In this document: one piece after another, positions 36,511 through 45,526 of the stretch | Layout of the letters: each line of letters opens with the position of its first letter | Numbering within the stretch: the stretch's first letter is position 1 | Source: Coleofasciculus sp. FACHB-1120 | GTDB taxonomy: Bacteria > Cyanobacteriota > Cyanobacteriia > Cyanobacteriales > FACHB-T130 | Assembly (NCBI RefSeq): GCF_014698845.1 | Contig: NZ_JACJTV010000014.1 | Span: 1 to 64,000 of the forward strand | DNA: 64,000 nt | Direction of reading: 5' to 3' | The notes under the pieces: model-generated | Database searches by the model: none | What the model was told of the DNA's origin: nothing | What the model saw: only the letters and a program-made list of their open reading frames with translations | Translations under genes and position numbers: made by a program

Positions 36511-37284
36511 ATGAAAAGCATTTTTGGATCTTCCCAAACAAAAATCAACAAGCAGAAACCGTTAGTTTCAATTTACTGGGATTCTCAAAATGTCCCCTTT
36601 ACAGAAGAAAAAGCAAAGTTAATGGCGGCTTTTGCCAATTCAAAAGGGCGTTTGATTAGTGGAAAGGTTTACTACAATTCAAAGTCCGGAAACCATTTTT
36701 TTACCGAAAAAAATCTAGGAAGTATTGGTTTCACTGGGATTGATGTCCCTTGTCCTTTAAAGAACGCTGCTGATGATCGATTAATGAGTGACTATCTTGA
36801 AGATATTCACGGCAACCAGCCTCCCGATGTGGCTATTATTGTATCGGGAGATGGGGATTTCAAAAAGTTAGTTTTGAATCAGAAAAAGTTGAGTAAAAAG
36901 GCGATAGTTGTCGCTCAACGAGGTAATGTGAAGCAAAATCTAAAAATTGTTGCTGATGACTTTCACTTTGTAGATGAACTACCTAACTTAGTTAGCAACA
37001 AGGCAGTGATTCAGAAAGATGGCAAGTTGCCTTATATCACCTACGATGATGCTGTTAACTGCTTTATTGAAGCTATCAAAACTGCGGTTCGAGAGGGTAG
37101 GAGTACAACATATTCCATCATTGCCAGCCTGATGTGTCAAAGTCAGCGGTTTCCTAACTATAAAGGGGTTTCCACGATTCATAAACCTGATGGGACGAAA
37201 TTTTCAAGCTTCAAAAATTTTGTTGCGGCTGTCGTAAAACAGGGCAAAATAAAATTACAAAATGATGAAATATTGTTAGTATAG
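36511..37284 (+). CDS. NYN domain (LabA/DUF88-like) putative ribonuclease
   Basis: 257 residues. The PIN-like NYN fold shows the acidic residues D24 (IYWDSQN), D88/D89 (AADDRLMSDYL) and D114/D116 (VSGDGDF), then KKAIVVAQRG. NYN proteins are metal-dependent RNases. The C-terminal 80 residues (CFIEAIKTAVREGRSTTYSI, then a winged-helix-like segment ending KLQNDEILLV) resemble an OST-HTH/LOTUS-type RNA-binding module. RNase III follows 189 bases downstream, but a terminator separates them. The RNA target is unknown. Confidence 0.9.
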   Translation: MKSIFGSSQTKINKQKPLVSIYWDSQNVPFTEEKAKLMAAFANSKGRLISGKVYYNSKSGNHFFTEKNLGSIGFTGIDVPCPLKNAADDRLMSDYLEDIHGNQPPDVAIIVSGDGDFKKLVLNQKKLSKKAIVVAQRGNVKQNLKIVADDFHFVDELPNLVSNKAVIQKDGKLPYITYDDAVNCFIEAIKTAVREGRSTTYSIIASLMCQSQRFPNYKGVSTIHKPDGTKFSSFKNFVAAVVKQGKIKLQNDEILLV

Positions 37285-37390: not shown

Positions 37391-37473
37391 CGTGTTCGCC
37401 TAATTAACAACCATCAATTACTGGTACTGATAGTTCCATGCAATTAATTTACCCAAAAACAGGAGAGATAAAA

Positions 37474-38160
37474 ATGAAATTGCCAACATTTCAGAATGAA
37501 AAAATTTTGCTTCATGCGCTTACTCACCGTTCTTATGCCAATGAAAACCCGGGAGAGTGCGAAAACAACGAGCGTCTAGAATTTTTGGGTGATGCTTTGC
37601 TAACTTTCTTAAGTGGCGAATATCTCTATCGTCGTCATCCAAAAATGGGAGAAGACCAAATGACTCGTAGGCGTTCCGCGTTGGTAGATGAAAAGCAGCT
37701 AGCAAAGTTCGCTACCGAGATTGGTTTAAACTTCAAAATGCGGTTAGGTCAAGGAGCCATTCGCGAGGGAGGCTACTACAATCCAAATCTACTAAGTAGC
37801 ACCTTTGAAGCCGTCGTCGGCGCTTATTATCTAGATAACAATTTAGATGTTGAGAAAGTCCGCGATTTTGTAGAACCGCTATTTGATTCCGTTCCGGAAG
37901 ATATTGTAGTGTCTCTCTCCAATGTGGACTCAAAAAATCGGTTTCAGCAATGGGTGCAAGCAGACCCCGATCTTGGCTCAGCGCCACCAAAATATGTCAC
38001 AAAACAAGCAGGAGGAACACCCCATGCTCCAGAGTTCATCGCCACAGTGTTTGTAGGTGATAAAGCCTACGGGGAAGGTAAAGGACGCAGCAAAAAAGAT
38101 GCTGAGAAAGCTGCTGCTGAAGATGCACTGTCCAAACTGAAAAAACGAGGGCTGGTGTAA
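37474..38160 (+). CDS. rnc: Ribonuclease III
   Basis: 228 residues from ATG 37474, which has AGGAGA eight bases upstream; the ATG at 37438 lacks one. The catalytic domain carries the signature ERLEFLGDA (E33, E36, D40) and E112 in STFEAVVGAYYLD. The C-terminal double-stranded RNA binding domain begins near residue 155 (NRFQQWVQADPDLGSAPPKY) and ends KGRSKKDAEKAAAEDAL. It cleaves dsRNA in rRNA and other transcripts. Cyanobacteria often have more than one copy. The protein is normal in length. Confidence 0.95.
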   Translation: MKLPTFQNEKILLHALTHRSYANENPGECENNERLEFLGDALLTFLSGEYLYRRHPKMGEDQMTRRRSALVDEKQLAKFATEIGLNFKMRLGQGAIREGGYYNPNLLSSTFEAVVGAYYLDNNLDVEKVRDFVEPLFDSVPEDIVVSLSNVDSKNRFQQWVQADPDLGSAPPKYVTKQAGGTPHAPEFIATVFVGDKAYGEGKGRSKKDAEKAAAEDALSKLKKRGLV

Positions 38161-39788: not shown

Positions 39789-40412
39789 ATGAATCCCTCT
39801 GAAGACAAACACATTACATACATGGAATTGGAATCAGAACAAACGAACCCAATCCAGACTAGAAATAATTCTCAGCTTACTAGCATGAATGGGACGGAAA
39901 GTGGAAATCTCGATAAAGTTAGAGATATTCTTTTCGGGAACCAGACGCGGGAATACGAAAAAAGGTTTGCTCGTTTAGAAGAACGTTTAGTGAAAGAATC
40001 CACTAACTTACGCGATGATACGAGAAAACGCTTAGATAGTATTGAAAACTATCTCCGAAAAGAACTTGAATCAATAACAGCTCGATTAAAAACTGAGCAA
40101 TCAGAACGAGACGAGTCCGTAAAAGGACTTTCACTGGAACTGAAAAACTTAATCAGTTCTTTGGAAAGAAAGCTTGCCCAACTAGATGAAGAAAGTACAA
40201 CAAAAGAGCGAGACTTGCGTCAGCAGATTTTAGAGCAATCTAAAAATCTAGACGATGAGATTCGACAAAAATATGAAGAACTTTTGGCTGCATTGGAACG
40301 AGAAGCCCAAGAACTTCGTAATGATAAGACAGACCGTTCTACTCTGGCATCTCTGTTTGCAGAACTAGCGATGAGACTGAACAATCAAGTGGGAACTTCT
40401 GGCAAGGAATAA
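39789..40412 (+). CDS. Coiled-coil protein, first gene of the GTPase cluster
   Basis: 207 residues, almost entirely predicted coiled coil from about 55 to 185 (ARLEERLVKESTNLRDDTRK and similar heptads), highly charged, no membrane segment or signal peptide. Residues 41-68 (LDKVRDILFG, then YEKRFARLEERL) resemble residues 24-46 of the OmpA-like protein encoded next (LSELRSLLLG, then LDKLHERL), suggesting a common binding element. It precedes the OmpA-like gene by 127 bases on the same strand. I do not recognise a known function. Confidence 0.82.
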   Translation: MNPSEDKHITYMELESEQTNPIQTRNNSQLTSMNGTESGNLDKVRDILFGNQTREYEKRFARLEERLVKESTNLRDDTRKRLDSIENYLRKELESITARLKTEQSERDESVKGLSLELKNLISSLERKLAQLDEESTTKERDLRQQILEQSKNLDDEIRQKYEELLAALEREAQELRNDKTDRSTLASLFAELAMRLNNQVGTSGKE

Positions 40413-40539
40413 TTCTTCTAGAAGAGAAGTTTTTAAGGAGGGAATTCAGAATTATCCGTCCCTAGGTTACTAAATCGCTCTAGCTCCCTCATCTAATGTC
40501 CGCATAAAAATTTAGTTGTTGAATAGGGGGATTTGAGCA

Positions 40540-42321
40540 ATGGCTGACTATTCCGCCCATAATTTATCTAGCAATTCTCCAGAGAATAATCTTTCAACTA
40601 ACGAAGATCTCTCTGAGCTTCGGAGTCTGCTCCTTGGTTTTGAGCAAAGCGAACTTGATAAATTGCATGAGCGACTGAATAATCCCGATATTCACGCAGA
40701 GGATATCAGCCGACTGCTTCCAGAAGCGATTATTCTACGGACACTGCAAGATAAGCAGCTAAGCGAGGCAATCGTGCCCACAGTCGAAGAAGCCATTCAT
40801 TTATCGGTCAAAAAAGACCTGAATATCCTCTCAGAGGCGATTTTTCCTGTAATCGGTCCAGCCATTCGCAAAGCGATCGCAACTGCTCTAGAAACCACAG
40901 TCCAGTCTCTCAATCAAACAGTGGAACATAGCTTGTCTCCACAAAGCTTTAAGTGGCGATTGGAAGCTTTACAGACAGGCAAATCATTTGCCGAAGTTGT
41001 TCTTCTCCGTACTCTTCTCTATCGAGTTGAACAAGTTTTTTTGATTCACAAAAAAACTGGATTGTTACTTCAGCACGTAGTAGCGCCAAACGTAGCCGCT
41101 CAGGATGCAGACCTAGTTTCAGCGATGTTAACAGCGATCCGGGATTTTGTCCAAGACTCTTTTAGCGTCCAAACCGGCGATTCTCTAGAAACGTTGCAGT
41201 TTGGTGAACTCACCATTTGGATTGAACCTGGTCCGCAGGCAATATTAGCAGGGATTATCCGGGGAACTGCACCTAAGGAATTAAAGTTAGTGTTTCAAGA
41301 AATAATAGAGAAGATTCACCTCAAATACGACCAGAAATTTAATTCGTTTGAGGGAGATACTGCTCCTTTTGAAGGCAGCACGCTTTATCTTGAAGATTGC
41401 TTTCAGGCTCAGTATCAACCCAAAAAAACAAAACCTTCCCCTGTTATCTGGATTTTATTAAGCTCTATATTAATAGCTTTGGGTAGCTGGTTCTTTTTTG
41501 ACTTCACAGACAAACAGCGCTGGGCAGCGTATTTGGAAAAATTAAATGCCCAGCCAGGAATGACCGTAGTTACTTCCGAAAAACGTCAGGGAAAATATTT
41601 TATTTCTGGGCTTCGAGATCCCTTAGCGGCAGATCCAATTCAGATAATGAAAAAATCAAATATTAATCCCAAAACAGTTATTAGCCGCTGGGAGCCTTAC
41701 TTATCTTTTTATCCAAAGTTTACCGAAACCAGAGCTAAAGACTTGCTCCAACCTCCGGTAACTGTATCTTTAATTGTTGATGAAAGCGGAATTCTACATG
41801 CTAAAGGTTCTGCGCCTTATCAATGGATTGTTGAAACTAGAAAACTGGTGCGAGCCATTCCCGGAATTAATAAATTCGACGAAAATAATCTTGTTGAGAT
41901 GGAACTCAAAGAACTTGAGCGCAGCAAAAACGAGATTGAAAAACAATTACTTCTTTTTACAGAGGGAAGAACACAACTTCAACCCGGACAGGAGGCAAGG
42001 ATACAAAACCTTATTAAAGAAGTTCAAAAGCTTACGAATACCGCGCCCTATTTAAGTAAAAACATCCAGATTAAAATTTTAGGACACGCTAACAAAATAG
42101 GCTCAGAAGAGAGAAATCTGATCCTAAGCCAAGGGCGTGCTAATGCCATCCTTGCTACTCTAGTTTCGCAAGGAATCAAAAAAACCAATCTTTCTGCCGT
42201 AGGTGTGGGTACTGGAGAAACTGTGGATAAGAAACGCCCACAGGATCGAGCATTGAGCCGCAGCGTCTCTTTCAAGGTAATTTTAACTGATACCCCCAGT
42301 AGAGAGATAAACCGGCGATGA
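40540..42321 (+). CDS. Transmembrane OmpA-like protein with cytoplasmic regulatory domain
   Basis: 593 residues. Part 1 (1-300) is cytoplasmic: the LR.LLLG motif, helices, then at about 150-265 a strand-helix-strand pattern (VFLIHKKTGLLLQHV, DADLVSAMLTAIRDFVQD, GELTIWIEPG, AILAGIIRG) that resembles a roadblock/longin-type fold. Part 2 is one membrane helix (301-321). Part 3 (about 330-455) looks BON-like. Part 4 (about 460-585) is an OmpA C-terminal domain (IQIKILGHANKIGSEERN, then LSQGRANAILATLVSQGI); the usual GHTD Asp is Asn, but Arg is kept. Its stop overlaps the GTPase start (ATGA). ATG 40540 has a GGGGG tract upstream. Probably joins cytoplasmic GTPase signalling to the periplasm. Confidence 0.85.
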   Translation: MADYSAHNLSSNSPENNLSTNEDLSELRSLLLGFEQSELDKLHERLNNPDIHAEDISRLLPEAIILRTLQDKQLSEAIVPTVEEAIHLSVKKDLNILSEAIFPVIGPAIRKAIATALETTVQSLNQTVEHSLSPQSFKWRLEALQTGKSFAEVVLLRTLLYRVEQVFLIHKKTGLLLQHVVAPNVAAQDADLVSAMLTAIRDFVQDSFSVQTGDSLETLQFGELTIWIEPGPQAILAGIIRGTAPKELKLVFQEIIEKIHLKYDQKFNSFEGDTAPFEGSTLYLEDCFQAQYQPKKTKPSPVIWILLSSILIALGSWFFFDFTDKQRWAAYLEKLNAQPGMTVVTSEKRQGKYFISGLRDPLAADPIQIMKKSNINPKTVISRWEPYLSFYPKFTETRAKDLLQPPVTVSLIVDESGILHAKGSAPYQWIVETRKLVRAIPGINKFDENNLVEMELKELERSKNEIEKQLLLFTEGRTQLQPGQEARIQNLIKEVQKLTNTAPYLSKNIQIKILGHANKIGSEERNLILSQGRANAILATLVSQGIKKTNLSAVGVGTGETVDKKRPQDRALSRSVSFKVILTDTPSREINRR

Positions 42322-42815
42322 TCCAGAAAAAAATGTGTATGGTAGGTGCCTTCGCCACCGGAAAAACAAGTTTGGTCGCGCGTTTTGTTAGAAGTATTTA
42401 CTCGGACACTTATCAGACCACTGTAGGAGTAAAAATTGACAAAAAATCGCTCAGTGTAGGAGGAAAAGAATTAAATCTCATCCTTTGGGATCTTTACGGA
42501 GAAGACGAATTCCAAAAGGTTCGGATGTCGTATCTGCGGGGTTCGTCAGGCTATTTCTTAGTAGCTGATGGAACCCGTCGCACCACCTTAGATAAAGCTT
42601 TTACTCTGCAAAAAAGAGTAGAAGATACAATTGGCACTCTTCCCTTCATTTTGGTACTTAACAAATGGGATTTAACGGAGGAATGGGATATTGATGAGAC
42701 GGCGATGGATGAAATGGCGGAAAGGGGTTGGCTGGTCATTAAAAGCAGCGCAAAAACAGGTTTAGGTGTAGAGGAAGCTTTTCTAACGCTTGCGAAGAAA
42801 ATGATGGAGGCATAG
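42318..42815 (+). CDS. Rab/Ras-like small GTPase
   Basis: 165 residues, a complete small G domain: G1 GAFATGKTS (10-18), G2 Thr at 34/35 (YQTTVGVKI), G3 WDLYGEDE (57-64), G4 NKWD (115-118), G5 SSAK (143-146). At the position of Ras Gln61 there is Glu62, and DxxG reads DLYG. No C-terminal Cys, so no prenylation. ATG 42318 overlaps the upstream stop by four bases and the next gene starts at the base after its stop, so translation is coupled. Likely partner: the cytoplasmic domain of the OmpA-like protein. Confidence 0.93.
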   Translation: MIQKKMCMVGAFATGKTSLVARFVRSIYSDTYQTTVGVKIDKKSLSVGGKELNLILWDLYGEDEFQKVRMSYLRGSSGYFLVADGTRRTTLDKAFTLQKRVEDTIGTLPFILVLNKWDLTEEWDIDETAMDEMAERGWLVIKSSAKTGLGVEEAFLTLAKKMMEA

Positions 42816-43832
42816 ATGCTTGACCTCCCTTCGCCAATTCTGAATTATATTCACACTTTGGCAGTCGAAAATCGTTCTCCAGCCTATCTACTGGTAGAAA
42901 AAGATGGTTGCTTGTCCGATTGGGGAGGGAAACTGGAAGCCTATGGATTGAATGATTTGCAAAAAGGGGAATACGTCGGGAAACAAGTCTTTTTTCTAGA
43001 AGGTCTTTTTCCTCTAAACGGTTCTCCTATCTGTATCCCTTGCATGAAAACAGAATATGGGCTTTCCGCAGATGTCCATCTTGTACCTGGGGAAGAGAAG
43101 GACTGGGTGTTGCTATTAGATGCAACTTTAGAAGAAAGCCAGCACCGCCTGATGCAACAACAAGGAAACGAATTGAACCTTCTGCGAGAGGAACACTGTA
43201 AGATATTAAATCACTATTTTGGAAAGGGTGTTACCCAATCACCACAAGCGATTCCTATTCTTCAAGAGAGAGGAGAACGGCGGGATGTAACCATTCTTTC
43301 TGTCCATATTTGCGGACTTACTTCCTACAGTGAAAACAATCCTCCGGAAGCGGTTTTTAAAACCCTGAATTTATACATCCCTACGATGCTCCAGGCACTT
43401 GTTGATGAAGCTGGTATGGTGAATAAAATAACTGGAGATGTAATAACGGCTTTCTTTGGGGTTATTCCCTCAACGGGATGTCCCAAAAGTCAGGCAATCA
43501 AGGCTGCACGAGCTATGATTGAGGCGATCGCAGAGATTGGTAAAGCGAGACAAGGAGAGCTTGGTTCACTGCTCGAAGTTGGTATTGGTATTGCTTCTGG
43601 AGCGGTTGCTTTGGGCGTTTTGGGTGGCAAAGGTAGCAGGATATTTAGCGCTATCGGCTACTATGTTAATTTAGCGACTCACCTAGAAAGTCAGGCGCGT
43701 CCCAGCGAGATTCTCATCGACGACAATACATTCCAAAAGCTTGATGAGATGAAAAAAAAGTTTTCCAAAAACCCCCTTCTGTTGAAAGGACTTGTTGAAC
43801 CTATATCAACTTATTCTTGGCGGTTGAAATAA
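42816..43832 (+). CDS. PAS-like plus degenerate class III nucleotide cyclase domain
   Basis: 338 residues. The N-terminal 100 residues look PAS-like (AYLLVEKDGCLSDWGGKLEA). After a coiled linker a cyclase homology domain runs from about 155 to 335. Key residues are altered: the first metal Asp is H164 (ILSVHICGLT against FADIRGFT), the base-selecting position is Y282 (GYYVN against GDTVN), and the transition-state Arg is H289 (VNLATHLES). D208, K204 (NKITGD) and N285 remain. It is probably catalytically inactive, or acts only through a partner subunit. Ends overlapping the kinase start by one base (TAATG). Confidence 0.88.
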   Translation: MLDLPSPILNYIHTLAVENRSPAYLLVEKDGCLSDWGGKLEAYGLNDLQKGEYVGKQVFFLEGLFPLNGSPICIPCMKTEYGLSADVHLVPGEEKDWVLLLDATLEESQHRLMQQQGNELNLLREEHCKILNHYFGKGVTQSPQAIPILQERGERRDVTILSVHICGLTSYSENNPPEAVFKTLNLYIPTMLQALVDEAGMVNKITGDVITAFFGVIPSTGCPKSQAIKAARAMIEAIAEIGKARQGELGSLLEVGIGIASGAVALGVLGGKGSRIFSAIGYYVNLATHLESQARPSEILIDDNTFQKLDEMKKKFSKNPLLLKGLVEPISTYSWRLK

Positions 43833-44950
43833 TGAGTGAATCTATTACAAGCGAGCTTTTTGCAGCCCTGAATATTGTAGTTTTAGAACGTCTAGATAAT
43901 GGTTTTTTTTCAATCGTTGGGCTGATGCCAGATTGGTTTAATAATGTCTATAGAGATACTACACAGGAACCGGATAGATTAGATTTAGGTCAGCAATTCC
44001 CTTTTCTCGACAACTTTCTCATCGACGCTGAAGATTTCTGGATGGGAAAAGGTACAGAACCCCTAAAATCGGGGCTGTGGACTGAAATTAATATATTAGG
44101 AAACGAATGCCATCTTGAGGCATCAGCCGTTTTTCTGAAAGGCAAGAAAATACTTTTGATTGAGTGTTTAGGGATTGCTTATGAAGAGAAACAATCTCTA
44201 ATCCAAAAGGCAAGGCAAAATAATTTAACTTATCAACATCTTATTAAAGAGATACAGAAAAAAGAAATTTTACTTCATTGCTTTGTCCACGATATAGCAG
44301 GACAACTAACGGGACTTAACTGCTGTTTCGCACTTCTTGCTTTAGAAAGTTTGACACCAAAAGGCAGAGAACGTCTAGAAATTGGAAGGAAGCAATGTAC
44401 CAAGCAACAGATGTTGATTCAGGATATATTGAAGGCATTTTCTGCCGAAGTAAAATCATTAGAAGCTTTTTCACTTGATCCTGTTCACGCTCCGGATGCA
44501 ATTCTTTGTGCAATGGAAGTTGTGGATGCTTTATTACCGACTTTTACCTTCAATAAAAAGCAGTTGCAATTGGCTGCCGATATTAATCGGTCGAAAGATT
44601 GGAAGGTGGTTGGGGAAACCTCGCGTTTGGAGAGGGTTCTTTTTAACTTAGTGGAAAATGCTCTTAGACATAGTCCGGCTAGTTCTACTGTGACTGTTAA
44701 TCTCCAAGAAGATGGAGAATTTATTCTGGTAAGCGTGGACGATGAGGGTTTTGGTGTACCGCCGGAGCTTTCTAAAAATTTATTTCAAAAATTTTCTCAA
44801 GGAAGAGAGAAAGCTGGCAAAGCGGGTTTAGGACTTTATTTTTGTCGGATTACGGTTGAACGCTGGGGTGGCAGTATTGGTTATTCACCCCGTACTGAAA
44901 GAGGTTCACGATTTTGGTTTCGGCTTCCTCGACCCGTTGTGCAATCATAA
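43832..44950 (+). CDS. Soluble histidine kinase of the GTPase cluster
   Basis: 372 residues from ATG 43832 (overlaps the cyclase stop). No membrane segment. The N-terminal 120 residues look PAS-like (LDNGFFSIVGLMPDWFNNVY). The H box is HCFVHDIAGQLTGLNC, the N box FNLVENALRHSP, G1 DEGFGVPP and G2 GKAGLGLYFC. No receiver domain or response regulator is encoded nearby, so its output may be within the cluster. Last gene of the coupled run: the next gene starts 186 bases on. Confidence 0.9.
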   Translation: MSESITSELFAALNIVVLERLDNGFFSIVGLMPDWFNNVYRDTTQEPDRLDLGQQFPFLDNFLIDAEDFWMGKGTEPLKSGLWTEINILGNECHLEASAVFLKGKKILLIECLGIAYEEKQSLIQKARQNNLTYQHLIKEIQKKEILLHCFVHDIAGQLTGLNCCFALLALESLTPKGRERLEIGRKQCTKQQMLIQDILKAFSAEVKSLEAFSLDPVHAPDAILCAMEVVDALLPTFTFNKKQLQLAADINRSKDWKVVGETSRLERVLFNLVENALRHSPASSTVTVNLQEDGEFILVSVDDEGFGVPPELSKNLFQKFSQGREKAGKAGLGLYFCRITVERWGGSIGYSPRTERGSRFWFRLPRPVVQS

Positions 44951-45136
44951 ATTTGTATTTTAATTATCTACAAAATTTTCCGCTCGGAGAAGGTACTAAG
45001 CGGTTGGAACCGCACAGCGACAGGAAGCATACAAACGAAACCTGCATCAGCAGATTACAAATTTGTATCTAAAGTGATTTCAATCTGGCAGCAATATCGT
45101 AGAATCTGAGTGAAATCGTGTGGGAGAAAGCGTGAA

Positions 45137-45526
45137 ATGGAGAGTCGAGTATACGAATTTGACCAGACGCAGAACCAGCTGATTCGGGATCTTGCTCAGA
45201 AAATGCGCTTTGTTAGCTACTTTCTGATCGCTTTAGGGGTGCTTCTGGTTATAGATGGGATTGTCAGTATCCGGAAAGGTGAAATAGGCGGCATTGTCAG
45301 TGGCGTTGTTCAAATCGTTATTGGTTTTTGGACAAGTAAAGCAGCTTCTTCTTTCCAGCTTATTGTCAATACTCAGGGAAGCGACATGGAAAATTTGATA
45401 GGTGCCCTTGGGGAACTTAGAAAACTTTATACACTGCAATACTGGCTGATATTAATAGCGGTCATTTTTGTTGCTGTTGCACTCATTATGGCGCTAGTTT
45501 TTGGTGTATTTCAGGTTACTCAATGA
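45137..45526 (+). CDS. Small membrane protein of unknown function
   Basis: 129 residues from ATG 45137, preceded by GGGAGAAAG; a GTG at 45110 would add nine residues. Three hydrophobic segments (FVSYFLIALGVLLVIDGIVS, IVSGVVQIVIGFWTSKAA, YWLILIAVIFVAVALIMAL) with a short acidic loop (GSDMENLIGALGELRK). I do not recognise the family. It follows the kinase on the same strand but with a 186-base gap and no clear coupling. Confidence 0.72.
   Translation: MESRVYEFDQTQNQLIRDLAQKMRFVSYFLIALGVLLVIDGIVSIRKGEIGGIVSGVVQIVIGFWTSKAASSFQLIVNTQGSDMENLIGALGELRKLYTLQYWLILIAVIFVAVALIMALVFGVFQVTQ

Follow-up and report, generated by a model that had tools for sequence, protein, structure and literature searches.

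A Group 1 Rup-like small-GTPase gene set with a predicted longin-like membrane protein and two glutamine-bearing output proteins in Coleofasciculus sp. FACHB-1120

Rup GTPases were placed with the eukaryotic Ras superfamily in a 2014 survey, which described a Group 1 Rup neighbourhood made up of a coiled-coil gene, a gene for a protein with an unknown domain, a transmembrane (TM) segment and an OmpA domain, the Rup GTPase gene, and an output gene whose product carries an invariant N-terminal Gln (Wuichet & Sogaard-Andersen 2014, PMC4316618). According to the main text and table of the survey, Rup GTPases lack the catalytic Gln, which the authors speculated is supplied in trans; no Rup member had been experimentally characterised by 2014, and 0 of 121 Rup sequences were coupled to MglB (PMC4316618). 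Roadblock proteins have been described as sporadic in bacteria, with the roadblock/longin families taken as archaeal in origin and Ragulator as a roadblock scaffold (PMC10933270), and the longins have been derived from a prokaryotic roadblock line (PMC3521125). Here we analysed a five-gene set at positions 39,789 to 44,950 of a 64,000-nucleotide stretch of DNA from Coleofasciculus sp. FACHB-1120 (contig NZ_JACJTV010000014.1, positions 1 to 64,000; the whole stretch is called the window). In the features examined, the set appears to match the published Group 1 Rup neighbourhood, and we put at roughly 0.57 the probability that it encodes an inner-membrane signalling system built on a Rup-type (Group 1) small GTPase, with a longin platform, readers built on N-terminal modules (N-modules) and a kinase output.

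Comparison with the survey showed that the window, like Group 1 Rup loci, has a small (<240 aa), single-domain GTPase of the Ras superfamily that lacks the catalytic Gln of G3, a coiled-coil gene, a gene for an unknown domain-TM-OmpA protein, no MglB gene and a cyanobacterial host (PMC4316618). Its outputs also carry an invariant N-terminal Gln, presumably the one in the logo of that paper. Unlike the published neighbourhood (PMC4316618), the window has two outputs in tandem rather than one; one of them is class III cyclase-like, degenerate, and in many genomes reduced to a PAS-helix module. A further difference is that the unknown domain is here predicted to be longin-like. The terms 'adenylate cyclase', 'class III' and 'longin' are absent from the main text of the survey (PMC4316618), and no published account of a longin domain in Rup systems was found in the literature covered, which excludes most subscription papers. 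The original prediction, made from the DNA letters, knew of no described function for this set; that statement falls, the set having been published as the Group 1 Rup neighbourhood (PMC4316618). What is new here is the longin fold prediction, the presence of two Gln-bearing outputs, and the degenerate cyclase reduced to a PAS-helix module.

All five genes lie on the forward strand. The first encodes a 207-aa coiled-coil protein (39789..40412), and 127 bases separate it from the gene for a 593-aa membrane protein with predicted longin, TM and OmpA parts (40540..42321; hereafter the OmpA protein). The OmpA gene overlaps by 4 bases the gene for a 165-aa Rab-like (Rup-type) small GTPase (42318..42815), which is followed with a 0-base gap and in the same frame (TAG-ATG, 42813-42818) by the fourth gene (slot 4; 42816..43832), whose 338-aa product joins a PAS-helix module to a degenerate class III cyclase domain. 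Slot 4 in turn overlaps by 1 base the gene for a 372-aa soluble histidine kinase (43832..44950), which starts at ATG 43832; an alternative TTG start at 43817 would add 5 aa. Pfam searches gave OmpA at 49.1 bits, Ras at 104.9 bits, HATPase_c at 87.2 bits and Guanylate_cyc at only 49.7 bits. Among the seven proteins scanned with Pfam (the five genes and two neighbours), no response regulator was found, and none matched Robl_LC7, the MglB-type roadblock family, at E<=0.1. The predicted gene calls, positions and overlaps in the last four genes were confirmed, as was the lack of a response regulator beside the kinase.

Conservation of gene order was assessed in the best 80 of 325 relatives, on named genome contigs and chosen by GTPase similarity; these loci share some genomes with the order-wide and phylum samples given below and are not an unbiased sample. 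Loci close to the window set are termed type A, and distant loci, with an OmpA protein about 25-33% identical, type B. The OmpA protein lay upstream of the GTPase in 80/80 loci, a coiled-coil homologue upstream of the OmpA gene in 77/80, and an open reading frame (ORF) with a kinase-type N-module downstream in 79/80, with a match to the kinase part in 74 of these. Slot 4 was full-length and cyclase-like in 14 loci, N-module only in 56, a deletion remnant in 1 and absent in 9. The loci were mostly cyanobacterial and also included Desulfonema magnum (complete chromosome), Desulfococcaceae bacterium HSG8, a Deltaproteobacteria metagenome-assembled genome (MAG) and two Acidobacteria/Blastocatellia MAGs; the nearest among the best 80 of 325 was that of Trichocoleus sp. 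FACHB-40 (GTPase 83%). Gene order is conserved in cyanobacteria, reaching Desulfobacterota and Acidobacteria, and the conservation of the set is above chance expectation. The five-gene order is not unique to this genome, and its conservation across phyla supports the original prediction that the genes act together.

In the order-wide sample, 116 of 195 genomes had an OmpA-protein relative at E<=1e-10, and in 13 of them (the window's own included) it was a close one, at 54-100% identity. All 12 other close loci had the GTPase gene adjoining the OmpA gene and the kinase downstream. Slot 4 was a full cyclase gene in 9 of them, while two had a deletion remnant and one the N-module alone. Eight of the 12 had the coiled coil (split in one), another had a 55-aa fragment of it, and it was not found in the remaining 3; one close locus (L039) had its OmpA gene in two ORFs. 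The phylum sample yielded a GTPase match at E<=1e-12 in 50/386 genomes, 12 of them at 63-100% identity.

Exact overlaps are less conserved than gene order. Spacing between the OmpA and GTPase genes was <=20 bases in 61/80 loci, with overlap in 5/80, and spacing before the kinase gene (from slot 4, or from the GTPase gene if there was no slot 4) was <=20 bases in 15/79. The proposal that the products are made in fixed ratio thus gains weak support: the overlaps are real in the window but vary between genomes. A zero gap between the GTPase stop and the slot-4 ATG recurred in 48 of the 71 loci with slot 4 (TAA in 39, TAG in 9, TGA in 0) and may be explained by shared ancestry.

The GTPase is 163-175 aa long across the 80 loci and has a single Ras domain in the window, where the G1, G4 and G5 motifs are kept. 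The P-loop GxxxxGKT and NKxD motifs, including Lys16, Asn115, Lys116 and Asp118, were conserved in 81/81 GTPases, and the SAK Lys in 79/81. Glu62 occupied the position of Ras Gln61 in all 81 type A sequences. The best Protein Data Bank (PDB) sequence matches were Rab23 and other Rabs, and the window protein has no C-terminal Cys for lipidation. For GTPases from the loci with a PAS-only slot 4, described below, median dN/dS was 0.168 (668 pairs). ORFs of 673-1249 aa with a 25-26% GTPase match were set aside as different multidomain GTPases.

The unknown domain of the OmpA protein was modelled with AlphaFold2 (residues 1-327) from alignment A1 of 56 sequences (30 of ~80 type A and 26 type B). 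Over residues 161-290 the block-mean pLDDT was 76-97, and strands (E) and helices (H) followed the order E162-170, E176-181, H190-208, E218-221, E224-230, E234-241, H246-268 and H275-289 (b-b-a-b-b-b-a-a). Foldseek against PDB returned Mon1-Ccz1 with Ypt7 as the best match (5ldd, E=1e-4), and also TRAPP, Asgard Roadblock3, AP sigma chains and MglB with MglA (3t12, E=3.3e-4). The top row in VIA-align 2 was the VAMP7 longin domain (Z 13.8, rmsd 2.2, 118 aligned), with Sec22b (Z 13.0), Fuzzy of Fuzzy-Inturned (13.0), Mon1-Ccz1 (11.6) and MglB (10.9) also matched; these matches showed 8-17% identity over residues 160-295. The cytoplasmic domain of the OmpA protein (residues 160-295; 41017..41424) is therefore predicted, on the strength of the model and its longin and roadblock matches, to adopt a longin fold, which is also that of the Rab exchange-factor platforms of eukaryotes and is related to the roadblock fold of MglB.

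A TM helix is predicted at 41443..41499, where hydrophobicity peaks from residue 302 (Kyte-Doolittle mean 2.26 over 19 residues); a mean of 1.6 was exceeded somewhere in 68 of 79 OmpA-protein sequences and not in the other 11. The OmpA domain (residues 472-569; 41953..42246), of the peptidoglycan-binding type and recognised by the Pfam match above, is predicted to be periplasmic and contains Arg533, invariant in 79/79 type A sequences. The original call of an OmpA-like transmembrane protein held for the OmpA domain and the TM segment; the topology suggested here, in place of an outer-membrane barrel, is that of a single-pass inner-membrane protein with its longin-like domain in the cytoplasm and its OmpA domain in the periplasm.

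Residues 1-130 of slot 4 (42816..43205) are predicted to fold into a PAS domain with a long helix behind it (pLDDT 92, pTM 0.78). The best Foldseek match was the PAS-like domain of FlrB (7yrt, E 6e-4) and the best VIA-align match the ThkA PAS domain (Z 10.6, rmsd 2.0, 82 aligned), and the rows listed in the fold searches were mostly PAS, LOV, photoactive yellow protein, phytochrome or sensor kinase by name; this bears out the PAS domain originally called in the protein. Pfam PAS_9 matched only 2/69 module members (best E 1.5e-4). In alignment A2 (the window, 44 of 69 references and 24 of 26 type B sequences), Gln115 on the C-terminal helix of the module was invariant across the 69 rows (45 type A, 24 type B).

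The conserved part of slot 4 is this N-terminal module, and the catalytic domain is often absent. In 56/80 loci the gene encodes 123-143 residues and ends shortly past the Gln helix; the median dN/dS of such PAS-only genes was 0.217 (257 pairs, dS 0.1-1.2), which indicates purifying selection on the module. Two Trichocoleus-type genomes had lost the middle of the gene with both ends left. Because full-length genes also occur in Desulfobacterota, Acidobacteria and Acaryochloris, loss of the cyclase would be the simpler direction of change. When the window was compared with a genome of the same genus (L032), the N-module had a dN/dS of 0.055 and the cyclase part one of 0.282.

For the cyclase domain (43281..43790) we assumed the active-site positions of the mammalian enzymes: two metal Asp, a substrate Lys, an Asn and an Arg. 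The window residues at these positions are His164, Lys204, Asp208, Asn285 and His289, so that the first metal Asp and the transition-state Arg would both be replaced by His and the five-residue active site is incomplete. All five residues were kept in 2/20 type A cyclases versus 11/11 type B cyclases examined. The domain is probably catalytically dead in the window: the earlier label of a cyclase-like protein stands as regards the Guanylate_cyc match, but not if taken to mean a working and constant enzyme.

The kinase carries a second Gln-bearing N-module (residues 1-140; 43832..44251), in which Gln125 and Arg128 were invariant in 77/77 distinct sequences (identical rows merged; ORFs <200 aa left out). 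The predicted phospho-acceptor His153 (44288..44290), Asn276 and the D-x-G-x-G and G-x-G motifs were kept in 72/72 aligned kinases, an alignment limited to sequences of 350-420 aa with a kinase match. Judged by these motifs the histidine kinase looks intact; the HisKA profile gave no match in the window kinase at E<=0.1. Three residues ahead of the phospho-acceptor His stands a Cys (44279-44290, residues 150-153) that was likewise invariant in 72/72 aligned kinases, and a redox or metal role for it is possible. Profile comparison with hhalign showed that the cyclase and kinase N-modules are each co-linear with the N-terminus of type B outputs, Gln on Gln. In an Acaryochloris locus (L169), a kinase-type N-module was followed by GGDEF-EAL in place of the kinase. 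One genome (G260, locus L060; 4 contigs, 99% completeness) kept the PAS-only gene and had no kinase N-module at E<=0.001, and in another (G336, locus L053) the kinase N-module was located elsewhere in the genome, apart from the set.

Type B relatives comprised 39 loci, most retrieved by their GTPase. Eight type B OmpA loci retrieved along with the close loci of the order-wide sample all had the GTPase directly downstream (8/8), and an ORF >250 aa lay within 400 bases downstream of the GTPase in 33/39 loci; 27 of these 33 ORFs entered the type B N-module profile and 6 were dropped. Four outputs scanned had PAS/GAF domains with a cyclase (3) or formed a PAS-rich hybrid kinase (1). At loci L045, L048 and L049, the type B Rup-like systems have an output composed of an N-module, PAS/GAF domains and a class III cyclase, an output not named in the main text of the 2014 survey by the terms searched (PMC4316618). 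The 11 type B cyclases with all five catalytic residues, selected at E<1e-5 and >400 aa only, had Asp at the purine-selecting position. The residue at the Ras Gln61 position of type B GTPases varied (His in 13, Ser in 12 and Gln in 10 of 39).

These data suggest how a Rup-type system at the inner membrane might work. The longin-like domain would bind the GTPase and hold or load it at the inner membrane, depending on the cell-wall state that the OmpA domain senses. As effectors, the PAS-helix modules would attach to the GTPase, and they might also act as GTPase-activating proteins (GAPs) giving the missing Gln in trans. Reading of the GTPase by the N-modules would set the activity of the histidine kinase, which would pass the signal to a response regulator whose gene lies elsewhere. 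The cyclase domain would be the relic of an output that ancestrally made a second messenger, with the PAS-helix module kept for GTPase handling in many genomes that have lost the cyclase. We favour the N-module proteins as outputs because the enzymes behind the N-module swap while the longin-GTPase core stays. A bolder version, which we offer tentatively and would not yet bet on, is a bacterial Rab-longin pair, in which a transmembrane longin-OmpA exchange platform lets the GTPase state report on the wall to PAS-helix readers grafted onto kinases, cyclases and c-di-GMP enzymes.

Several results weigh against the proposed Rup-type system or its parts. The longin-like fold is seen in the predicted model only, and the whole-model pTM for residues 1-327 was 0.52. 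By sequence, no longin or roadblock family appeared among 25 of 74 Pfam families listed at E<=1 (56 members), and a PDB hmmsearch with the cytoplasmic domain returned, at E<=10, three weak and unrelated matches, with no longin or roadblock protein. The hhalign comparisons to the type B output N-terminus had E values of 3.8e-4 and 2.5e-3 as single comparisons and low probabilities of 36% and 12%; direct comparison of the cyclase and kinase N-module profiles was not significant (E 0.08). Asn518 of the OmpA domain occupies what we take to be the canonical peptidoglycan-contact Asp position, where N, D and S occur in 35, 25 and 18 of 79 sequences. Because the window has Asn there and only 25/79 sequences keep the Asp, wall binding by the domain may be weak. 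The type B set is looser: a longin-region relative lay upstream of the GTPase in 36/39 loci (within 400 bases in 34), an OmpA domain was detected by blastp in 22 of these 36, the coiled coil was present in 25/39, and 4 of the 6 dropped downstream ORFs had no evident N-module. The absence of slot 4 from 9/80 loci shows that the PAS-helix module is dispensable there. The cyclase part is relaxed yet still constrained, its dN/dS of 0.282 being well below 1, and is not simply drifting. Cys occurred within the last six residues in 9/80 GTPases.

Other explanations were weighed as well. Signal flow could run in reverse: the PAS domains, responding to a small ligand or to redox state, would together with the kinase alter the GTPase, and the longin-OmpA protein would be the output that changes its wall grip or oligomerisation. 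PAS domains are usual sensor domains and no response regulator was found in the seven neighbouring proteins scanned; the GTPase of the actinobacterial conservon has also been suggested as the output (PMC4316618). We nevertheless consider such a flow unlikely, since the PAS-GAF-PAS cyclases and PAS-rich hybrid kinase of type B and the GGDEF-EAL protein of Acaryochloris (five proteins scanned) look like output enzymes that have been swapped. More doubtful still is a pure scaffold, in which the longin-like domain is a membrane platform, neither guanine nucleotide exchange factor (GEF) nor GAP, and the OmpA domain tethers the complex to the wall without sensing. Many longin and roadblock proteins do act as scaffolds, for example Ragulator. 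The OmpA domain evolves faster than the N-terminal region (dN/dS 0.326 vs 0.075, window vs L032), its canonical Asp is not kept, and it was not detected in 14/36 type B relatives, all of which would suit a passive anchor; the invariance of Arg533 in all 79 type A sequences speaks against one.

That the cyclase is a working second-messenger enzyme, giving two outputs in parallel, appears improbable. Of the catalytic residues, a substrate Lys and the second of the metal Asp pair do remain in the window, 2/20 relatives keep all five residues, and the dN/dS of 0.282 reflects remaining constraint. We reject the cyclase as a live output because the active-site residues at the first metal Asp and transition-state Arg are changed to His; further, its Guanylate_cyc score of 49.7 bits compares with 226-233 bits in three type B relatives, the full-length gene is absent in 66/80 loci, and the domain has a dN/dS five times as high as the N-module of the same protein. 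An anti-phage defence cassette of Zorya-like or Pycsar-like type is a very remote prospect. PADLOC returned ZorB on the OmpA domain (37 bits) and PycC on the cyclase domain (47 bits), besides weak matches to ZorA on the coiled coil (16.4 bits) and PDC-M43B on the kinase (17.4 bits). The stronger matches were limited to generic shared domains, on which ground the defence reading was rejected; there was no match on the GTPase and no other Zorya or Pycsar part among the five genes, and the cyclase is degenerate.

Outside the set, a small hydrophobic protein with a weak DUF5362-like match (21.7 bits, cutoff 25) is encoded 3' of the kinase gene at 45110-45526. Upstream lie a gene for a NYN-domain protein (36511-37284, 71 bits) and, after it, one that looks by eye like RNase III (37438-38160).

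If the Rup-type reading is right, the longin-like membrane protein gives Rup operons a concrete, testable partner, and a 130-residue protein would allow a direct test of the speculation that the invariant Gln serves as a GAP in trans. The natural series from full cyclase through dead cyclase and deletion remnant to PAS-helix alone would show which part of an output the system tends to keep. The parallel to eukaryotic Rab-longin control bears on the origin of that pairing: if the bolder version held, bacteria would possess, apart from the roadblock-MglA line, a counterpart of the longin-Rab pairing of eukaryotic membrane traffic, whether ancestral or convergent.

Among other known systems, the actinobacterial conservon (AGPS, CvnA-D) resembles the window set as an operon with a histidine kinase, a Ras-like GTPase and a roadblock/longin-superfold protein, CvnA being the sensor kinase and CvnB an MglB-type roadblock protein in the account consulted (PMC13343842). 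Unlike in the conservon, the kinase of the window set is soluble, and the partner protein, which gave no sequence match to roadblock proteins, is predicted to be longin-like, transmembrane and OmpA-linked. MglA-MglB of Myxococcus and Thermus likewise pairs a Ras-like GTPase with a roadblock/longin-superfold partner (VIA Z 10.9 to MglB); however, MglB is a soluble roadblock protein recognisable by sequence, whereas the window partner is membrane-anchored, has an extra C-terminal helix and no roadblock match by sequence, and its GTPase is of Rup type. The eukaryotic longin Rab regulators (Mon1-Ccz1, Fuzzy-Inturned and TRAPP longins) share with the window a Rab-like GTPase and a longin-fold protein at a membrane, with VIA Z scores of about 11 to 13.4 to the predicted domain, from which they differ in that the window protein is bacterial, single-pass and OmpA-bearing, at about 8-12% identity.

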